Below, one piece after another: positions 1-8,119 of a stretch of 64,000 nucleotides of DNA. The stretch is from Pseudarthrobacter albicanus (GTDB lineage: Bacteria; Actinomycetota; Actinomycetes; Actinomycetales; Micrococcaceae), in NCBI RefSeq assembly GCF_018224015.1, contig NZ_JAGPOT010000004.1, positions 62,001-126,000 of the forward strand. The letters run 5' to 3'. Both the position numbers and the translations under genes were made by a program. The notes beneath the pieces are model-generated. The model was not told the DNA's origin, ran no database searches, and saw nothing but the letters and a program-made list of their open reading frames with translations. Position 1 is the first letter of the stretch. Every line of letters begins with the position of its first letter.

Positions 1-16
1 AGCCGGAAGGCGTTCG

Positions 17-1774
17 TTAGTAGGCCTTTACGCGCTGTTCGACGATGAGGTGGATGAGGGCAAACACCCCGTCCTGGTCGATGGCCTGGAGCGCAGCGTC
101 GAGGGCGGCCGGCACGTCCTTGTCCTGGGTGACCGTGACGCCGAAGCCGCCGAAGGCTTGGGCCATGAGGCCGAAGTCAGGGTTTTTCAGCTGCGTGCCC
201 GAAACCCGGGACGGGTAGTGGCGTTCCTGGTGGGTGCGGATGGTGCCGTATTCCTGGTTGTCCATCACGATGATGAGCGGCGTGGCTCCGTACTGGGCAG
301 CGGTGGCCAGCTCCTGGCCGTTCATGAGGAATTCCCCGTCGCCGGCGATGGTGACCACGCGGCGCTGCGGACTGGCCAGCGAGGCGGCGATGGCCGAGGG
401 AATGGAGTAGCCCATGGAGCCGTTTCTCGCGCTGATCATCGAAGCGTAGCGCCGTGTGGGGAAGTACCGGTGTGCCCAGTTGGTGTGCTCGCCCGCCCCG
501 AAAGTCACCATGGCATCCTCGGGAAGCCGCGGGACCAGGTTCGCCATCAGGGTGTCCATCCTTGCAGGCCCTTCGCAGGGGGTGACCGGCGGCAGGCTGG
601 CGAAGGAAGTCTGCTCGGCGCGCATCCTGGCCGTCCACGCTTTCCACTCCTCTTTCATGGGCAGGTCGATTTCAACGAGATCCCGGACGAAGGCGTCCGG
701 TTTCGCCACTATCTGCCTCGAGACCGGACCTGAGCGGCCGCGCAACGAGGGGTCTATGGTCACCAGAAAGTTCTTCTTGTTCCAGTCCTGCCTGCAGACA
801 AAGCCGTCCGTGATCACGTCCCCCGGGACCGTCCCGACGAAAACGAGGAGGTCGGTTTCCTCGAGCAGGTCGTACGTGGGGCGGGGGCGGCCGTAACCGA
901 TCGGGCCCACGTAGCTCGGCGAGTCGAAGGAAACTGTTCCCTGCGTGCGCCATTCCGCGGCGGCCGGGATGTGGTGCTTTTCGAGCCATTCTGTGAGTTG
1001 GTGGGCCGCTTCCTGGGACCAGTCGTTGCCGCCGGTGACAAAAAGGGGCTTCGAGGAATTTGCCAGGGCCGCGGCGAGTGCTTCGGCATCCGGGGTGCTC
1101 ATTCCGCCGGTGGCCACGGGGATGGTGGGGTGCAGGGCTGGATCCACCTGCTGGCGGATGATGTCTTCCGGCAGACCCACCACCACCGGGCCCGGCCGTC
1201 CGCTCATTGACGCGAACATCGCTTCCGCAACGATCTCGGACGCCCGTTCGGCATGGTCAAGCACCATAACGCGTTTGGCTCCTGTGTCGAACCAGGCCTT
1301 GATATCAAACTCCTGGAACGCTTCGCGGTCCCGGTGGGCAAAAGGGATGAGCCCGACGAATAGCAGCATCGGGGTGGAGTCCTGCCAGGCGGTGTGCAGG
1401 CCAACATGGGCGTTGGCCGCGCCGGGTCCACGGGTGACCATGGCCACGCCCGGACGCTGGTTCATCTTCCCGTCAGCCTCGGCCATGTAGGCGGCGCCGC
1501 CCTCATGCCGGCAGACCACCGTGTCGATGTCAGAACCGTGCAGCCCGTCCAGCACGTCCAGGAAGCTCTCGCCGGGAACAACATAGGTGCGTTCGACTCC
1601 GTGGGCCACGAGGGAGTCAACAATTACATGCCCGGCGGATTTCAGGGCCCGGCCGCCGTCCAGGCCCCCGGGAACGGTCGATGGGGTGGGCTGTACGGGG
1701 CCGTGTTGGATGATGTTGGCTTCGAATGGCTGCGTGTCGGTTGCGGTCATGGTGGATGCGGACTCCGTTGTCAT
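17..1774 (-). CDS. Thiamine-diphosphate-dependent enzyme, acetolactate-synthase-like
   Basis: A 585-aa protein with the three-domain layout of the acetolactate synthase/pyruvate oxidase superfamily. The N-terminal PYR domain carries the catalytic glutamate (Glu91 in CRHEGGAAYMAE). A central domain follows. The C-terminal PP domain has the thiamine-diphosphate motif starting GDGEFLMNGQEL near residue 477 and ending VMDN about 27 residues later. The family decarboxylates a 2-oxo acid and transfers or releases the acyl unit. The exact substrate cannot be read from the sequence, and no small regulatory ALS subunit lies nearby, which argues against the biosynthetic enzyme. It is last in a minus-strand series after a glutaminase, an amino-acid permease and a Cys-rich peptide, so a role in catabolism of an amino-acid-derived keto acid is inferred. 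The Shine-Dalgarno before the chosen ATG is weak; a second in-frame ATG lies 24 bases downstream. Confidence 0.85.
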   Translation of the reverse strand: MTTESASTMTATDTQPFEANIIQHGPVQPTPSTVPGGLDGGRALKSAGHVIVDSLVAHGVERTYVVPGESFLDVLDGLHGSDIDTVVCRHEGGAAYMAEADGKMNQRPGVAMVTRGPGAANAHVGLHTAWQDSTPMLLFVGLIPFAHRDREAFQEFDIKAWFDTGAKRVMVLDHAERASEIVAEAMFASMSGRPGPVVVGLPEDIIRQQVDPALHPTIPVATGGMSTPDAEALAAALANSSKPLFVTGGNDWSQEAAHQLTEWLEKHHIPAAAEWRTQGTVSFDSPSYVGPIGYGRPRPTYDLLEETDLLVFVGTVPGDVITDGFVCRQDWNKKNFLVTIDPSLRGRSGPVSRQIVAKPDAFVRDLVEIDLPMKEEWKAWTARMRAEQTSFASLPPVTPCEGPARMDTLMANLVPRLPEDAMVTFGAGEHTNWAHRYFPTRRYASMISARNGSMGYSIPSAIAASLASPQRRVVTIAGDGEFLMNGQELATAAQYGATPLIIVMDNQEYGTIRTHQERHYPSRVSGTQLKNPDFGLMAQAFGGFGVTVTQDKDVPAALDAALQAIDQDGVFALIHLIVEQRVKAY

Positions 1775-1846
1775 CTCTACTTGTCTTCGTGGGTTGGTTG
1801 GCGTGCATGGTATTTCCGCTGCCTTCAGCGGAACGATAGTTGGTGC

Positions 1847-2002
1847 TTAGTCTGTTTCCGGTCCGGTGCAGAAGAAGCAGCCGTCCTCGCAACTGTCGTT
1901 CGACGCCGGTACGTAGCCGTTGTCTGCGGCCACCGCCGGCAGCGGGAGGTCCGGGCCTCGTTTGGCGGATACCGGATGCGGGATAGGGGTGGCAGCTGAC
2001 AT
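1847..2002 (-). CDS. Small 51-aa peptide with a C-terminal Cx3Cx2C motif
   Basis: This short reading frame lies between the permease and the thiamine-diphosphate enzyme on the same strand. The ATG at 2002 is preceded by AGGA with a 7-base spacer, which decides the start. A longer version from an ATG at 2059 (70 aa) is possible. The protein is Pro/Ala-rich in its first half and ends with the segment DSCEDGCFFCTGPETD, that is C-x3-C-x2-C plus acidic residues. It has no signal peptide or membrane segment. I do not recognise a family. The cysteine spacing could bind a metal or an Fe-S cluster, or the tail could be a substrate for modification; both are inference. Its placement 72 bases upstream of the enzyme gene suggests co-transcription. 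Confidence 0.55.
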   Translation of the reverse strand: MSAATPIPHPVSAKRGPDLPLPAVAADNGYVPASNDSCEDGCFFCTGPETD

Positions 2003-2122
2003 GTGGCGGTCCTGAGGAGAGATGTGGCGGTTAGGGCTCTGCGGATTTCGTAGCTTCATGAGGCTTTCCGTCGTTTGTTGAGGGATTGGGCAGCGGAACC
2101 GGGACGGTGGGCAGCTGTTCGC

Positions 2123-3637
2123 TTACCGGATCGAAGGCCTATTGGCCACCACGGGGGCGGCGCCCGTATAGCCCGTCCGGATTTCGGCGATTTCGTGGAT
2201 CCGCTTCCGGCAGGCGTACCAGCCGGCCACCATCAGGGCACAGGCAAGCAGGGTTACCAGCAGCGTGAGCGGGGAGTCGATGAAGACCATGACCAGCACG
2301 CCGACGAGGAACAGCAGCGAGAGGTAGCCGGTGTACGGGGCGCCGAACATCCGGAACGATGGGCGTTTCAGCCAGCCCTTGTCCGCCCAGCGTTTGAGCT
2401 GCATCTGGCACAGCACGATCGTGGCCCACGTGACGATGATGCCCACAGAGGCGACGTTCAGGACGATCTCGAACGCCTGGGACGGCACGAGGTAGTTCAG
2501 CGGGACGCCGAGCAGCGAGACGCCGGCGGTCATGGCGATGCCGCCGTAGGGGACGCCCGCCTTGTTCATGCGCTGGGCGAACATGGGCGCCGAGCCAGCC
2601 ACGGACATGGAGCGCAGGATGCGGCCGGTGGAGTACAGGCCGGCGTTGAGCGAGGACAGCGCGGCCGTGAGGACGACGAGGTTCATGATGACGTCCACGC
2701 CCTGGATGCCGATGGAGCCGAAGAAGGTCACGAAGGGGCTGACGCCCTTTTCGTAGGAGGTGTAGGGCAGCAGCAGCGCGAGCAGGATGACCGAGCCGAC
2801 GTAGAAGACCGCGATGCGGAAGACCACGGAGTTGATGGCTTTGGGCATGATTTTCTCGGGGTTCTCGGTTTCGCCAGCCGCGGTGCCGATGAGTTCGATC
2901 GAGGCGTAGGCGAACAGCACGCCTTGCATGAGGATGATCATGGGAAGCAGGCCATTGGGGAAGATGCCGCCGTTGTCCGACAGGAGGCTGAACCCCACGT
3001 ACTGGCCGTCGACGGGGGTGCCGAAGATGACGAAGAAGGTGCCGATGACGAGGAACGCCACCAGCGCGGCGACCTTGACCAGGGCGAACCAGAACTCGAG
3101 TTCGCCGAACACCTTGACCGAGACGAGGTTCAGGCTAAGCACCACCACGAGGGCGATCAGGGCCCAGGCCCACTGCGGCACGGCGCCCATCCAGGGGACG
3201 TACTTGCCGAAGAAGTTCATGTACAGGGCCGCGGCGGTGATGTCCACGATGGTGGTGGTGGCCCAGTTGAGCCAATAGAACCAGCCGGAGACAAACGCTG
3301 CCTTCTCACCGAAGAATTCACGCGCATAGGAGACAAACGAGCCCGACGACGGCCGGTGCAGCACCAGTTCCCCCAGTGCCCGGAGGATGAGGAAGGCGAA
3401 GAAACCGCAGACGGCGTAGGCGATGACCAGGGATGGGCCTGCCGCGTTGAGCCGGCCGCCGGCGCCGAGGAACAGGCCGGTGCCGATCGCGCCGCCGATG
3501 GCGATCATCTGGATCTGGCGCGCCTTGAGACCCTTGTGGTAGCCGGCGTCTTCGGCGTGGATCAGGGCATCCGAGGCATGGGCGTGGCCGCCGTCGGCCT
3601 CGTACAGACCAACCGCGTCATTGGGGTTGTTGGGCAT
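2123..3637 (-). CDS. APC-superfamily amino-acid permease (AAT family, asparagine/GABA permease-like)
   Basis: A 504-aa integral membrane protein with about 12 hydrophobic segments. The first carries the family signature [14 protein letters not shown], followed by the GPSLVIAY loop. These are typical of the amino-acid:H+ symporters AnsP, GabP and CycA. The protein should import an amino acid into the cytoplasm with protons. The glutaminase gene lies directly upstream, so glutamine or asparagine is the likeliest substrate, but this comes from context only. The start has a good ribosome site (AAGGA, 6-base spacer). The 74-base gap to the glutaminase stop and the common strand suggest one transcript that continues into the Cys-rich peptide and the thiamine-diphosphate enzyme. 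Length is normal for the family and nothing looks broken. Confidence 0.88.
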
Positions 3638-3711
3638 GGGTGTTCCTTTCGACCTGTCAAAGATCTAAATGGGGGACTATCGGAAAATGGTGGGGACGTC
3701 TCGGGCCGGGG

Positions 3712-4656
3712 TCAGAAGACCGACCACCCGGTGCGGTCGGACAGGTCAGCGAGGGCCTCTGTCCCGGCCAGGGAATTGCCCTTGGAATCCAGCCGGGGGC
3801 TCCAGACACAGATGGCGCACTCGCCGGGGACGATGGCCAGGATGCCGCCACCTACACCGCTCTTCCCGGGAAGGCCCACGCGGTAGGCGAACTCACCGGC
3901 CGCGTCATACATGCCGCAGGTCAGCATGATGGATCCGATGCGTTTGGCCTCGCTCCGGGAGACCACGGTTCCCCGCGCGCCCAGGCCGTCCTGGGCGAGG
4001 AACAGGCCGGCCTTGGCCACCTCCACGCAACTCATCATGATGGAGCACTGCCTGACGTAGTTTTCAACCACCGCGTCGGCGGGCCGCCTCAGGTTGCCGA
4101 AGTCCTTCAGGAAGTGGGCGAGGGCCAGGTTGCGGCTGCTGTTGGCGAGCTCACTCTTTGCGGCCACCTCGTCAATGAAAGGACCCTGTCTGCCATTCTG
4201 GTTACCCACCTGACCGGCGAGGAAGCGCAGGACGTGGCCGGCGGCGTCGGGAAATCTTTCCATCAGATGGTCGGTCACCACCAGGGCGCCCGAGTTGATG
4301 AACGGGTTCCGGGGGATGCCGTGCTCGACTTCAAGCTGCACCAGGGAGTTGAAGGACGTTCCTGACGGTTCGCGGAGTACCCGTGACCAGAGCGCATCGG
4401 GGTCATCGGCGCCGAGCGCCATCGCCAGGGTGAAGACCTTCGAGATGCTCTGGATGGAGAAGGGAAGATCGGCGTCACCGGAGCTGAACACGTCCCCGGA
4501 CGCGGTGGCCACGGCAATCCCGAAACGGTCGAACGGCGGCGATGACAGGTGGGGGATGCTGGCGGGAACCGACCCTGCTTCACTCCGGGGCCGGTGGCTG
4601 CGGACAATGTCGGCCAGGACCAGGCCCAGAGGCGGTGAATCGAGTGCTGTCATCAT
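3712..4656 (-). CDS. glsA: Glutaminase (beta-lactamase-fold GlsA type)
   Basis: A 314-aa protein that should hydrolyse L-glutamine to glutamate and ammonia. It shows the serine-dependent glutaminase hallmarks: the S-x-x-K pair in FSIQSISKVF (Ser70/Lys73), the substrate-binding NPFINSGA segment, and the glycine-rich LPGKSGVGGGI near the C terminus. Length matches the bacterial GlsA family. Its ATG overlaps the stop of the upstream PucR regulator by four bases (ATGA), so translation is probably coupled and the regulator is made from the same mRNA. The permease gene follows 74 bases downstream, consistent with uptake followed by deamidation of glutamine. The enzyme is cytoplasmic; no signal peptide is seen. 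Confidence 0.93.
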   Translation of the reverse strand: MMTALDSPPLGLVLADIVRSHRPRSEAGSVPASIPHLSSPPFDRFGIAVATASGDVFSSGDADLPFSIQSISKVFTLAMALGADDPDALWSRVLREPSGTSFNSLVQLEVEHGIPRNPFINSGALVVTDHLMERFPDAAGHVLRFLAGQVGNQNGRQGPFIDEVAAKSELANSSRNLALAHFLKDFGNLRRPADAVVENYVRQCSIMMSCVEVAKAGLFLAQDGLGARGTVVSRSEAKRIGSIMLTCGMYDAAGEFAYRVGLPGKSGVGGGILAIVPGECAICVWSPRLDSKGNSLAGTEALADLSDRTGWSVF

Positions 4657-6251
4657 TTCTTGCCCAGATGCTCCTTATGCTTGCCGGCCCACTCCTGGAT
4701 GTGAAGCAGGGCGACCAATGAATGGCGGGGATCGCTGAAGTTCAGGCCGGTAACCCGGCTGACCTTGCTGATCCTGTAGTAGACGGTGTTCTTGTGCAGT
4801 TTCATCCGCTGGGCGCATTCGGCCACGTCCAGCGACGCCTCGAAATAGGCCCGGAGGGTTTCGGCCAGCTCGCCATCGTCGCGGAGGAGGGCCCAGAGGC
4901 TGCGATGACGGAAGGCCGAGGCGGTGAAGTTCTCAACTGCTTCGTGGAACAGGATGTCCGTTTCGAAATCGTCCACCGTGGCCACAGAAGCGGTCCCTGA
5001 CCTCCGCATGCAGCCGAGCAGTGCCTCCGTCTTGGCGGTCACCGAATGAATCGACAGCAGATCCGGTGCGATTGGTCCCACCGCCGCGAACGGAGTGATG
5101 CCAAGGTGCTTCCCGGCGTCCCTGACGATGGCCTCGGCAAGGCTCCGAAGCCCGGCTTCGGCATTGGCGGACTGGAGTGCCGGGATGATCACGGCGGTGT
5201 CGCCGTTGAACTGTCCTACGATGGCCGACGGTTTGTAGGCCGCCGCATGGATGGACGCAAGGTTGGCGAGCTCCCCATGTTTGAGCGCTGCATCGTCTTC
5301 CTGCGCCCCGGCGGCCGACATTCCCAGCAGGATCAATGCCGTGGGGCGGTCCGCAGGGATCTTCTGGCTGTGGGCGCTCGCCGCGGCTTCTGCCGGACCC
5401 GAAAGGATCCGCGCAATCCGGTCCTCGCGCATGTGCACCGACTGCTGGTTGCGGTAGCGGATCAGTTCGGCTGACACCCGCGTGGCTGATCCGGTCAGCA
5501 CATAGTCAACGTCTGCGCCGAAGCCGTCCCCGGTTTCCTGGAGCCAGATGTACCCCATAATGCGATCGCCCGCGAACAAGGCGATAGCAACGCGCTCCCT
5601 CAGACCGTCCTGGGGCCTGGCCGGAACCCTGACAGGCAGGCGGGTCCGGTGCAGCTCGCGGTAGGCGCCAAGATCCTTGAGGAGGAGTTCGTATTTGCGC
5701 GGACCCCGTCGGGCCAGAATCGATGCCTTACGCAGCTCGTCGATGTCATTCGACACTGTGGAGTACGCCAGAACCTTGTTGGCAGCGTCCTCGATGACCA
5801 CGTGGCTCGACGTCAGCCGGGCCGTCGTCTGGGCAATGGCGAACAGGTCTTCTTCCAGCAGCGTCAGCACTTCGCTCAGGTAGCTGGGTGGCTGGATCCT
5901 GTCCTTGGCGATTGACAGGAGCCGGTCCCAGTCCGCGCCCGGGTCCACCAGAAGGAGACCTGTTCCGACAGCCCGGAGCAGCTCTTCTGCTTCCCCCAAT
6001 TCCTCGGGACTGCCCTTGACGGCCAGCACAAGGGGAGGATTTTTCAGAAGGCGCCGCAGCGCGGGCAATGCGGAGCGTCCGCGAACCCCGATAAGCAGGA
6101 CGAACGCAGCCCCGCCGTCGGAAGTCTCGTCGTCGGCATCAACGATCAGCAAGCGTTCGATCGGCGAATCGGCGCGGGACGGCCGAAGAATAAGACTGGC
6201 GAAACCCAGAGGGAGATCCGACAGGATGTCGTCCACTGTAGCTGCGGCCAT
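4653..6251 (-). CDS. PucR-family transcriptional regulator
   Basis: A 532-aa regulator. The N-terminal part resembles the PucR/CdaR sensory region (GAF-like middle). The last about 60 residues form the family's HTH_30 domain, with the characteristic stretch CAQRMKLHKNTVYYRISKV. Proteins of this type control purine, amino-acid or polyketide catabolism in actinobacteria, usually in response to a small metabolite. The chosen ATG at 6251 has AAGGA five bases upstream and fits better than the more distal start at 6320. Its stop overlaps the glutaminase start by four bases, so it probably regulates the glutaminase/permease/peptide/thiamine-diphosphate enzyme series. The ligand is unknown. A strong hairpin (6387-6419) separates it from the next upstream gene. 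Confidence 0.87.
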   Translation of the reverse strand: MAAATVDDILSDLPLGFASLILRPSRADSPIERLLIVDADDETSDGGAAFVLLIGVRGRSALPALRRLLKNPPLVLAVKGSPEELGEAEELLRAVGTGLLLVDPGADWDRLLSIAKDRIQPPSYLSEVLTLLEEDLFAIAQTTARLTSSHVVIEDAANKVLAYSTVSNDIDELRKASILARRGPRKYELLLKDLGAYRELHRTRLPVRVPARPQDGLRERVAIALFAGDRIMGYIWLQETGDGFGADVDYVLTGSATRVSAELIRYRNQQSVHMREDRIARILSGPAEAAASAHSQKIPADRPTALILLGMSAAGAQEDDAALKHGELANLASIHAAAYKPSAIVGQFNGDTAVIIPALQSANAEAGLRSLAEAIVRDAGKHLGITPFAAVGPIAPDLLSIHSVTAKTEALLGCMRRSGTASVATVDDFETDILFHEAVENFTASAFRHRSLWALLRDDGELAETLRAYFEASLDVAECAQRMKLHKNTVYYRISKVSRVTGLNFSDPRHSLVALLHIQEWAGKHKEHLGKK

Positions 6252-6386
6252 GTGCTTCCTTCTGACATTGACACCCGCCCGGACGGCTCTGTCCGGACAC
6301 CCAATGCTATCCAGAGCCAATCCCGGAAAATATGGATGCCGGCCTAAATTCCATGGCGGCTTTAGGTCCCGGGACCAATGCGAAGA

Positions 6387-6419
6387 GCGGACGACGGCGG
6401 GGGTCCCGCCGTCGTCCGC
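6387..6419 (-). terminator. Perfect 15-bp hairpin, likely terminator
   Basis: GCGGACGACGGCGGG and its exact reverse complement are separated by the loop GGT. The hairpin sits 26 bases past the stop of the minus-strand winged-helix gene and before the PucR gene. The downstream T tract is weak. The core GACGACGGCG recurs in hairpins at 10846 and 12149. Confidence 0.65.
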
Positions 6420-6444
6420 CTACTTGGTAGCCGGCGCCGTCTGG

Positions 6445-6738
6445 CTAGGAGCCCGACTCCGGTTTTTCAGGGGCAAGCGCGTAGAAGGGTGTGAACCGGC
6501 ATCTCGCTCCGGGGGAAATGTTGGAACGGACGATCGAAGCGGTCTCCAGCGCTGCCAGATGGTATCTGACTGAGCCCCGCGAGGAGGCGATGCCGTTGCT
6601 GATGTCGGCTACTTTGCTGGCACCGTTGCTTGCCAGATACTCGACGATCTGTGATCTGATCGGTCTGCTTGGTGCTCTTTCCGGGCGCTCAATGTGATGC
6701 ACATCCATCGACCTGTGGATCTCAAAATCAGTGGTCAT
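6445..6738 (-). CDS. Small winged-helix (ArsR/MarR-like) DNA-binding protein
   Basis: A 97-aa protein whose residues from about 25 to 85 read as a winged helix. Helices around IRSQIVEYLASNGASKVADI and the recognition helix SSRGSVRYHLAALE are followed by a short wing. This is typical of small ArsR/HTH_20 regulators. No cysteine-based metal site is visible. The second ATG (6738) has AAAGG eight bases upstream and is preferred over the ATG at 6744. The gene follows the symporter by 70 bases on the same strand and may be the last gene of the aspartase/symporter transcript. Its target and signal are unknown. Confidence 0.7.
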   Translation of the reverse strand: MTTDFEIHRSMDVHHIERPERAPSRPIRSQIVEYLASNGASKVADISNGIASSRGSVRYHLAALETASIVRSNISPGARCRFTPFYALAPEKPESGS

Positions 6739-6808
6739 TGCCATGGCCTTTCATCCGGTGTGAGGGTAGATTCGCTGGCTGAGGGTTGGTGGGCGGAGCG
6801 AGATCCGG

Positions 6809-8119
6809 TCAGTGCATCGAAACGCGCCCAGGATCCCTGCTGTCTTCAGTGTCGTACGCGTCGTCAGCGTCGTAGGCAGCTTCCGCAGGTGATCCCTCGA
6901 GGAGGGAAGCAGCCTTGTCGTGGTTTCGGCCGATGACCGCGGTGGCGATGGCATTGCCCAAGATGTTGGTGGCCGTGCGTCCCATGTCCAGGAGCTGGTC
7001 GATCACCAGCAGGACACCTATTCCGGCGGCGGGGATACCGAAGGCAGGGACCACGGCCGCTACGACGACGAGTGACCCGCGCGGCACGCCGGCCATGCCT
7101 TTGCTGCTGAGCAGGAGCATTGCGGTCATCGCGATCTGCTGGCCAAGGTCCATGTCGATGCCGTAGGCGTTGATGAGGAAGACCGATGCGAAGGTCATGT
7201 ACATCATGGACCCGTCCACGTTGAACGAGTAACCCAGGGGCAGCACAAAACCGGTGGTGCGCTTCTCGATGCCGAACTTGGTCAGGCCTTCAATGAGCTT
7301 GGGCAGCGCGGCTTCGCTGCTGGAGGTGGCGAATGCGATGACCATGGGTTCGCGCACTATCCGGACCAGCCGGAAGGCCGCCCGTCCGAGGAAGGCGACG
7401 GCGACGGCGATCATGATCGCCCAGAGTGCGGAGAGGGAGATGTAGAAGCCGCCGATGAACGACGCGTAGGTTGCGAAAGCGTCCACGCCCTTGGAGGTGA
7501 AGGCTGCCGCGATGCCGGCGAATACGCCCACCGGGGCCGCCTTCATCACGTATCCGGTGACCTTCAGCATGATGCCCATCAGTTCGTCGATGGCATCCGC
7601 TATGGAGGAGCGGCCCTTCTTCCGGAGGTTCAGCAGGGCGATGCCGAAGAGAGCGCCGAATACGAGGATCTGAAGGGGGTTGTTTTCCGTCAGTGCGGCG
7701 AAGACGCTCGTGGGGATGATGTGGGTAACAAACGCCTGGTAATCGAGGGGCTTCGTTTCCATTCCCGCGTCACCTCCCGGCATCAGGTTGAGCCCGTCAC
7801 CGACGTTGAGTATATGGGCCGTGATGAATCCGAAGGCGCCTACCAGGACGGAGGCGGACAGGAACCAGATCATGGAGCGGCCAAACAGCTTGCCCACCCC
7901 GGCGGATTTGGCCGCTCCTGCGATGCCGGACACCAGGGTGGCGAAGATCAGCGGGGCAATGATCATTTTGATGAGGTTCAGGAACATGTGCGTCACGGTG
8001 TCGAGGACGGCCACGACGGAACCGCGCGTGTCCACCGGCAGCAGCCAGTGGAAGAGCAGCCCGCTGAGGATTCCGAACACGAGCGCTGCCAGAATCCACA
8101 TGGTTGATTTGTTTTTCAA
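6809..8119 (-). CDS. Dicarboxylate/amino-acid:cation symporter (DAACS, GltP/DctA-like)
   Basis: A 436-aa membrane transporter with the glutamate/aspartate symporter family motifs. The serine-rich hairpin reads ATSSSEAALPKLIE and the TM7 motif reads NVDGSMMYM, the place of NMDGT in DctA and GltP. It should take up aspartate, glutamate or C4-dicarboxylates with H+ or Na+. The reading frame starts at TTG (8119) with AAGGA six bases upstream; an in-frame ATG 18 bases later is the alternative. It follows the aspartase gene on the same strand, so uptake of aspartate or export and exchange of fumarate fits the context. The C-terminal tail is acidic and Asp/Ala-rich. Confidence 0.9.
   Translation of the reverse strand: MKNKSTMWILAALVFGILSGLLFHWLLPVDTRGSVVAVLDTVTHMFLNLIKMIIAPLIFATLVSGIAGAAKSAGVGKLFGRSMIWFLSASVLVGAFGFITAHILNVGDGLNLMPGGDAGMETKPLDYQAFVTHIIPTSVFAALTENNPLQILVFGALFGIALLNLRKKGRSSIADAIDELMGIMLKVTGYVMKAAPVGVFAGIAAAFTSKGVDAFATYASFIGGFYISLSALWAIMIAVAVAFLGRAAFRLVRIVREPMVIAFATSSSEAALPKLIEGLTKFGIEKRTTGFVLPLGYSFNVDGSMMYMTFASVFLINAYGIDMDLGQQIAMTAMLLLSSKGMAGVPRGSLVVVAAVVPAFGIPAAGIGVLLVIDQLLDMGRTATNILGNAIATAVIGRNHDKAASLLEGSPAEAAYDADDAYDTEDSRDPGRVSMH

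Follow-up and report, generated by a model that had tools for sequence, protein, structure and literature searches.

A predicted cysteine-bearing micropeptide beside a thiamine diphosphate enzyme gene of Pseudarthrobacter albicanus belongs to a multi-copy family ending in GPETD

Why does a short open frame with three closely spaced cysteines stand between an amino-acid permease gene and the gene of a thiamine diphosphate (ThDP) enzyme in Pseudarthrobacter albicanus? The frame lies on the minus strand of a 64,000-nucleotide stretch of contig NZ_JAGPOT010000004.1 (assembly GCF_018224015.1, positions 62,001 to 126,000), here called the window, in which all positions are counted from its first letter. 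The original prediction had described a 51-codon frame at 1847-2002 that ends in CEDGCFFC (C-x3-C-x2-C), with a good ribosome site, and had offered it as a metal-binding partner of the enzyme, a modified peptide or a regulatory leader. The open frame, the cysteine motif, the ribosome site (AGGA 5' of the ATG) and the AA_permease and ThDP neighbours on the same strand were all found as described, while the start and the ending had to be revised.

Judged by its sequence, the window peptide is a member of a multi-copy family of short frames ending in C-x(3-9)-C-x2-C-x-GPETD, and this family is apparently undescribed. Besides orthologues, homology searches returned a large number of short frames at other places that end in the same way, such as CHYCSGPETD, CHFCDGPETD, CLYCNGPETD and CPYCWGPETD, each directly before the stop codon. 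Between the first cysteine and the C-x2-C pair stand 3, 4, 5, 8 or 9 residues, the N-termini of paralogues differ while the tail is kept, and the shortest members measure 17-18 amino acids (aa). Over 88 distinct DNA ends, GPETD was encoded by all four codons each for Gly, Pro and Thr and by both codons for Glu and for Asp, and was followed by TAA, TAG or TGA; all GPETD codons thus vary synonymously, and selection therefore acts on the peptide. The lack of any non-synonymous change within GPETD follows from motif-based selection of the ends, and what is informative is that the codons vary synonymously and that the two halves of the tail go together: 95 of 96 distinct GPETD-stop ends read C..C.GPETD, with the tail of L018 (loci are given by L numbers) as the sole exception. 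The survey behind these figures took in 1.34 Mb and 32,263 closed frames with a length of 16 codons or more; most of its loci had been chosen for a family match, so that it shows linkage and not frequency. Of 82 distinct tails, 66 have a start in frame that comes with a Shine-Dalgarno-like match (no control set). The tail of L098 is contained within a longer predicted gene that uses a different frame of the same strand, and L111, which matched the profile but in which no tail was found, was excluded from the counts.

In the window, the frame stays open upstream of the 51-aa start as far as an ATG at 2059 with GGAAAG before it. In most of the aligned orthologous spacers, but not in L041, a GAAAG-like site precedes this ATG, while the position of the 51-aa ATG sits at the edge of an insertion found in the window only. 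Because one ATG is invariant and the other unmatched (see the rows below), the window gene is most plausibly 70 aa long, not 51 aa.

1847..2059, minus strand: micropeptide gene, 70 aa from the conserved start; ATG at 2059 invariant across 15 orthologous spacers (translation and alignment)
1847..2002, minus strand: 51-aa version of the original prediction; none of the other 14 aligned relatives has an ATG at the place where it starts
1847..1897, minus strand: family-defining tail DSCEDGCFFCTGPETD plus stop (tail comparison and alignment)

Nor does the peptide end at CEDGCFFC: the frame runs on to the C-terminus CEDGCFFCTGPETD and its stop. In 11 aligned relatives, whose orthologues are 37-48 aa long, the N-terminal half is variable but SCEDGCFFCTGPETD at the C-terminus hardly changes (one Gly to Val), and TGPETD is conserved to the same degree as the cysteines. 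The conservation check suggested with the original prediction came out in its favour, with the frame and all three cysteines kept beside the ThDP gene in relatives. The likeness to an iron-sulfur triad fared less well. The Cx3Cx2C triad of radical-SAM enzymes binds an iron-sulfur cluster, and the window peptide shares that spacing and, as had been stated, contains no enzyme domain; the first spacing, however, varies across the family (x3, x4, x5, x8, x9), no radical-SAM domain was found, and the triad was rejected as a defining feature. Searches of Pfam and NCBIfam (E 0.1), PHROGs, PADLOC and the PDB gave no match to the window peptide.

The gene order on the minus strand of the window is PucR-type regulator, glutaminase, amino-acid permease, short frame and ThDP enzyme:

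4653..6320, minus strand: regulator with PucR-type helix-turn-helix (PF13556; library match)
3712..4656, minus strand: glutaminase, 314 aa (library match)
2123..3637, minus strand: amino-acid permease, 504 aa (AA_permease; the best NCBIfam model is L-asparagine permease, with a score below cut-off)
1814..1833, minus strand: 8-bp perfect inverted repeat with a 4-nt loop, in the gap that separates the peptide stop from the ThDP start; only part of the orthologues have it
17..1774, minus strand: ThDP enzyme, 585 aa, acetolactate-synthase-like (NCBIfam NF006052, PRK08199, thiamine pyrophosphate protein)

The ThDP enzyme starts 73 nt downstream of the peptide, and acetolactate synthases are its top sequence matches among solved structures. 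A second close copy of the enzyme, with 85% identity, is present in the same genome (G000:C46:49768-51429).

The loci of the enzyme bear on whether it depends on the peptide. When the ThDP enzyme was used as a query, 39 of 61 genomes of the genus matched at E 1e-100 and 30 loci were returned, at which the peptide lay directly upstream in 8, upstream with a gene of a ~65-aa family in between in 1, and downstream in 6; in the remaining 15 there was none within the stretch examined. At the 8 loci with the peptide directly upstream, the preceding gene on the same strand was 213-349 nt away; among the 15 loci lacking the peptide, ten had gaps of 32-69 nt, four had gaps of 157-233 nt and one had its predecessor on the other strand. 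These lengths rest on my own gene calls, so that some of the 157-233 nt gaps may be misplaced starts, and the preceding gene may not always be the permease. Because half of the ThDP loci show no peptide nearby, the enzyme does not seem to need it, and the peptide is no obligate partner of the enzyme.

The neighbourhoods of 77 peptide loci, chosen by tail and not by neighbours, were tallied descriptively. Neighbours that recurred were ThDP enzymes, PutA or proline dehydrogenase, glutaminase, glutamate dehydrogenase, DctA/MatC, aldehyde dehydrogenases, allantoinase and BCCT. PutA or proline dehydrogenase lies near the peptide in L081, L084, L086, L100, L105 and the plasmid L203 (PutA by Pfam in L100 and by annotation in L203, proline dehydrogenase by Pfam in L081, the remaining loci by size and similarity). 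Glutaminase was found in the window type of locus, L102 and L112, glutamate dehydrogenase in L110, DctA or MatC carriers in L092, L101, L104 and L113, allantoinase in L096, L097 and L103, and aldehyde dehydrogenases in L123 and L124, with one resembling succinate-semialdehyde dehydrogenase (SSADH; below cut-off) in L125. ThDP genes stand near the peptide in other arrangements in L086, L100 and L125, and for many paralogues no ThDP enzyme was found nearby. The pairing of ThDP and SSADH genes beside glutamate-producing genes suggests a putative 2-oxoglutarate decarboxylase route, which I only infer.

Two small companion families recur near the peptides. The ~65-aa family has the consensus WDDVQVGDxVxLxRNGRxxxxGxVDxRTxDGxVVWV... 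and no convincing library match, its "SH3-like" label having been given by eye without library support; it occurs close to catabolic genes and next to some of the peptides, and examples are L080 5058-5267, L107 5070-5279 and L086 2420-2731 (minus strand) and L203 4122-4391 (plus strand). Such a gene lies on the same strand within 1 kb of the peptide in 24 of the 77 loci, 15 of which represent one recurring locus and 9 about 7 other settings. In the recurring locus, the ~65-aa gene overlaps the peptide gene by ATGA (L091) or GTGA (L080), and in these two loci the members of 17-18 aa overlap the ~65-aa gene that precedes them; three loci lack the greater part of the ~65-aa gene and yet have the tail and its GTG intact. 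The second family, F3, measures ~70 aa and recurs near both the peptides and the ~65-aa family (L080 5922-6140, minus strand; L089 3725-3952, L042 8023-8220 and L087 4420-4659, plus strand). It had no library match, and its weak fold model (pLDDT 74, pTM 0.58) gave no PDB match at E 0.001. F3, peptide and ~65-aa gene are consecutive in L087, and the order on plasmid L203 is PutA, peptide, ~65-aa gene, F3. Neither family adjoins the window peptide, and PHROGs and PADLOC gave no match for four companion proteins.

The recurring locus (L077, L080, L107 and relatives), recognised by DUF1775 or an Lhr-type helicase, comprises a divergent ~115-aa protein (MNYSGTGNEKA...), the ~65-aa protein, the peptide, a ~210-aa protein without Pfam match and DUF1775, to which DUF4232 and the Lhr-type helicase are added in places. 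YcnI, a DUF1775 protein, has a copper role; such a role for the peptides was considered and rejected as not general. The window's own genome holds copies of the ~65-aa family at G000:C46, C66, C183 and C215, some of which adjoin PdxS-, aldehyde-dehydrogenase- and HutH-like genes (named by reading).

The tail is kept while the N-terminus and the position in the operon are free, a leader does not suit every member, and three maturase families are mostly missing, as set out below; the reading that I therefore favour, if tentatively, is a micropeptide that acts in trans and is recognised by its tail, with cysteines for metal or thiol chemistry. An unfixed operon position is what would be expected for a trans-acting product. 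The working part would be the last ~14-16 residues, C-x(3-9)-C-x2-C-x-G-P-E-T-D-COOH, with the remainder mainly providing a translation start. The peptide would be produced together with the enzymes or transporters of its operon, its cysteines would either serve as a thiol switch or bind a soft metal, with Zn the likeliest, and one shared partner, for which the ~65-aa family is a candidate, would read the C-terminal tail. Operons for the use of glutamate, proline and dicarboxylates, among others, might in this way report to, or be tuned by, a common factor. It is unusual for one stop-proximal peptide sequence to recur in operons that are unrelated to one another while the remainder of the peptide may change; if the tail is read in trans, soil actinobacteria would have in it a new means of connecting catabolic operons via tiny proteins.

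Several observations weigh against the trans-acting, tail-recognised peptide. No ~65-aa gene lies within 1 kb in 53 of the 77 loci, the window's included, and that family, itself multi-copy, occurs more widely than the peptide does, in 174 of 345 Micrococcaceae genomes. The structure model of the window peptide showed no fold (pLDDT 54, pTM 0.14). The tail has exceptions, with Ser in place of the middle Cys in L018, one GPESD end and one APETD end, and contexts with an MFS transporter, GNAT, an SMR pair with DUF5134, DUF1775 or BCCT do not fit a glutamate theme. A wider proposal, in which the GPETD micropeptides and their ~65-aa and F3 companions, found together repeatedly in Arthrobacter and its relatives, form a dispersed signalling or control module, with a cysteine-GPETD code and one receptor that couples many catabolic and transport operons, is conceivable but doubtful.

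A regulatory leader acting in cis, in which the ribosome would sense a signal with the tail in its exit tunnel, stall at or near the stop and alter the next gene (in the window, the ThDP enzyme), appears rather unlikely. It would account for an invariant block that abuts the stop codon and for members as small as 17-18 aa, and a same-strand gene does follow within 300 nt in 42 of 73 loci. Nevertheless, the nearest downstream gene is on the opposite strand in 23 of the 73, three times at a distance of 5 nt, and 8 more have no same-strand gene that close (300 nt), so that a leader does not appear to hold as a general role; this split is approximate owing to crude gene calls, and it covers 73 of the 77 copies, omitting L039, L040, L041 and L044 (short upstream or contig end). 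A search of window positions 1-7000 against Rfam found no known RNA at gathering scores, and the hairpin after the stop, which not all orthologues share, is not unusual in its folding (z-score -0.53). The modified peptide of the original prediction would take the form of a ribosomally synthesised and post-translationally modified peptide (RiPP) precursor, the C-terminal core of which is turned by one shared enzyme into a thiol or metal-binding product. Short, cysteine-bearing precursors with a conserved C-terminal block and several copies per genome would suit this reading, but there is no conserved leader, as the N-termini differ and some members have almost none. Across 12 peptide-positive genomes, the maturase families MNIO (PF05114), YcaO (PF02624) and SPASM (PF13186), the three classes searched, were found in 0, 3 and 2, respectively, the window's own genome carrying a YcaO, and in 0, 1 and 1 of 8 genomes chosen as peptide-negative, three of which have weak non-tail or unlisted profile matches (20 genomes in total). 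With these families mostly absent from peptide-positive genomes, a modified peptide is disfavoured and seems improbable.

Less probable still is that the peptide serves the ThDP enzyme as a subunit or binds metal as its partner. Adjacency is kept in the window type of locus, and ThDP genes occur near the peptide in the three further arrangements named above; however, the 15 of 30 ThDP loci with no peptide in the stretch examined and the many paralogues with no ThDP gene found nearby leave the partnership unsupported as it had been stated. A conserved DNA or RNA element that is open by coincidence and encodes no peptide would agree with a short sequence found at many places, but is hardly credible, being contradicted by synonymous variation at every GPETD codon, by the use of three stops and by a frame that is kept as nucleotides change.

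Known systems offer partial likenesses. CruR (Bp2923), as described in PMC9426467, has 145 aa with a CXXC 45 residues before RAPP, and its genes head operons. Like these copper-responsive upstream open reading frames (DUF2946), the GPETD peptides are small proteins with a C-x2-C pair and a motif near the C-terminus, encoded near regulated genes, whereas their pair stands one residue from GPETD, they occupy any operon position, and they carry no RAPP. The DUF2946 profile did not match the peptide (Pfam/NCBIfam, E 0.1), and members end in GPETD, GPESD or APETD. The haloarchaeal C(P)XCG zinc-finger micro-proteins, as described in PMC11241148, are likewise below 70 aa, with cysteine pairs and many copies per genome; in contrast, the GPETD peptides have one C-x2-C pair plus a loosely placed cysteine and a near-invariant tail, and thus not two such motifs.

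Mycobacterial polycysteine leaders are actinobacterial short cysteine reading frames upstream of metabolic genes. Unlike them, the GPETD peptides have no run of cysteine codons, have a conserved non-cysteine tail and are not confined to operon heads. Full-text searches of open-licence PMC papers, on GPETD and on small proteins or cysteine micropeptides from Arthrobacter and the Micrococcaceae, showed nothing on the GPETD family among the papers listed, GPETD matches being judged by title.

The family was found in the Micrococcaceae and in one other family of the order. Among Micrococcaceae genomes, a 17-column profile matched 119 of 345 at E 1, some of these being chance hits within long frames, and by a hand count among the matches listed, in which not every tail was read, at least about 60 of the 345 reach the last position of the tail. 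At the level of the order, 16 of 248 genomes matched at E 0.05, four of them from one other family (f14), whose tails were read directly (e.g. CPYCRGPETD). A draw across the phylum gave matches in 17 of 396 genomes: two within the window's genus had matches reaching the tail end, while outside it no listed match extends to the final position of the tail, and two that were read directly had no tail. No relative was confirmed on viral contigs, phage matches to one tail have E 2 to 7, and a phage-borne origin was rejected.

Other carriers include twelve Arthrobacter records, a Paenarthrobacter plasmid and a plasmid of Arthrobacter ZXY-2. Of two tail queries against plasmids, one gave two matches (E 8 and 1), which were accepted after their tails had been read, and the other gave none. 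The gene tables of two plasmid records, which are incomplete, show nothing under the tail; GPETD genes are easily overlooked. Three family members were read in genome G409, and the window's own genome carries one further member, flanked by a DUF5134 protein on one side and an SMR pair on the other.
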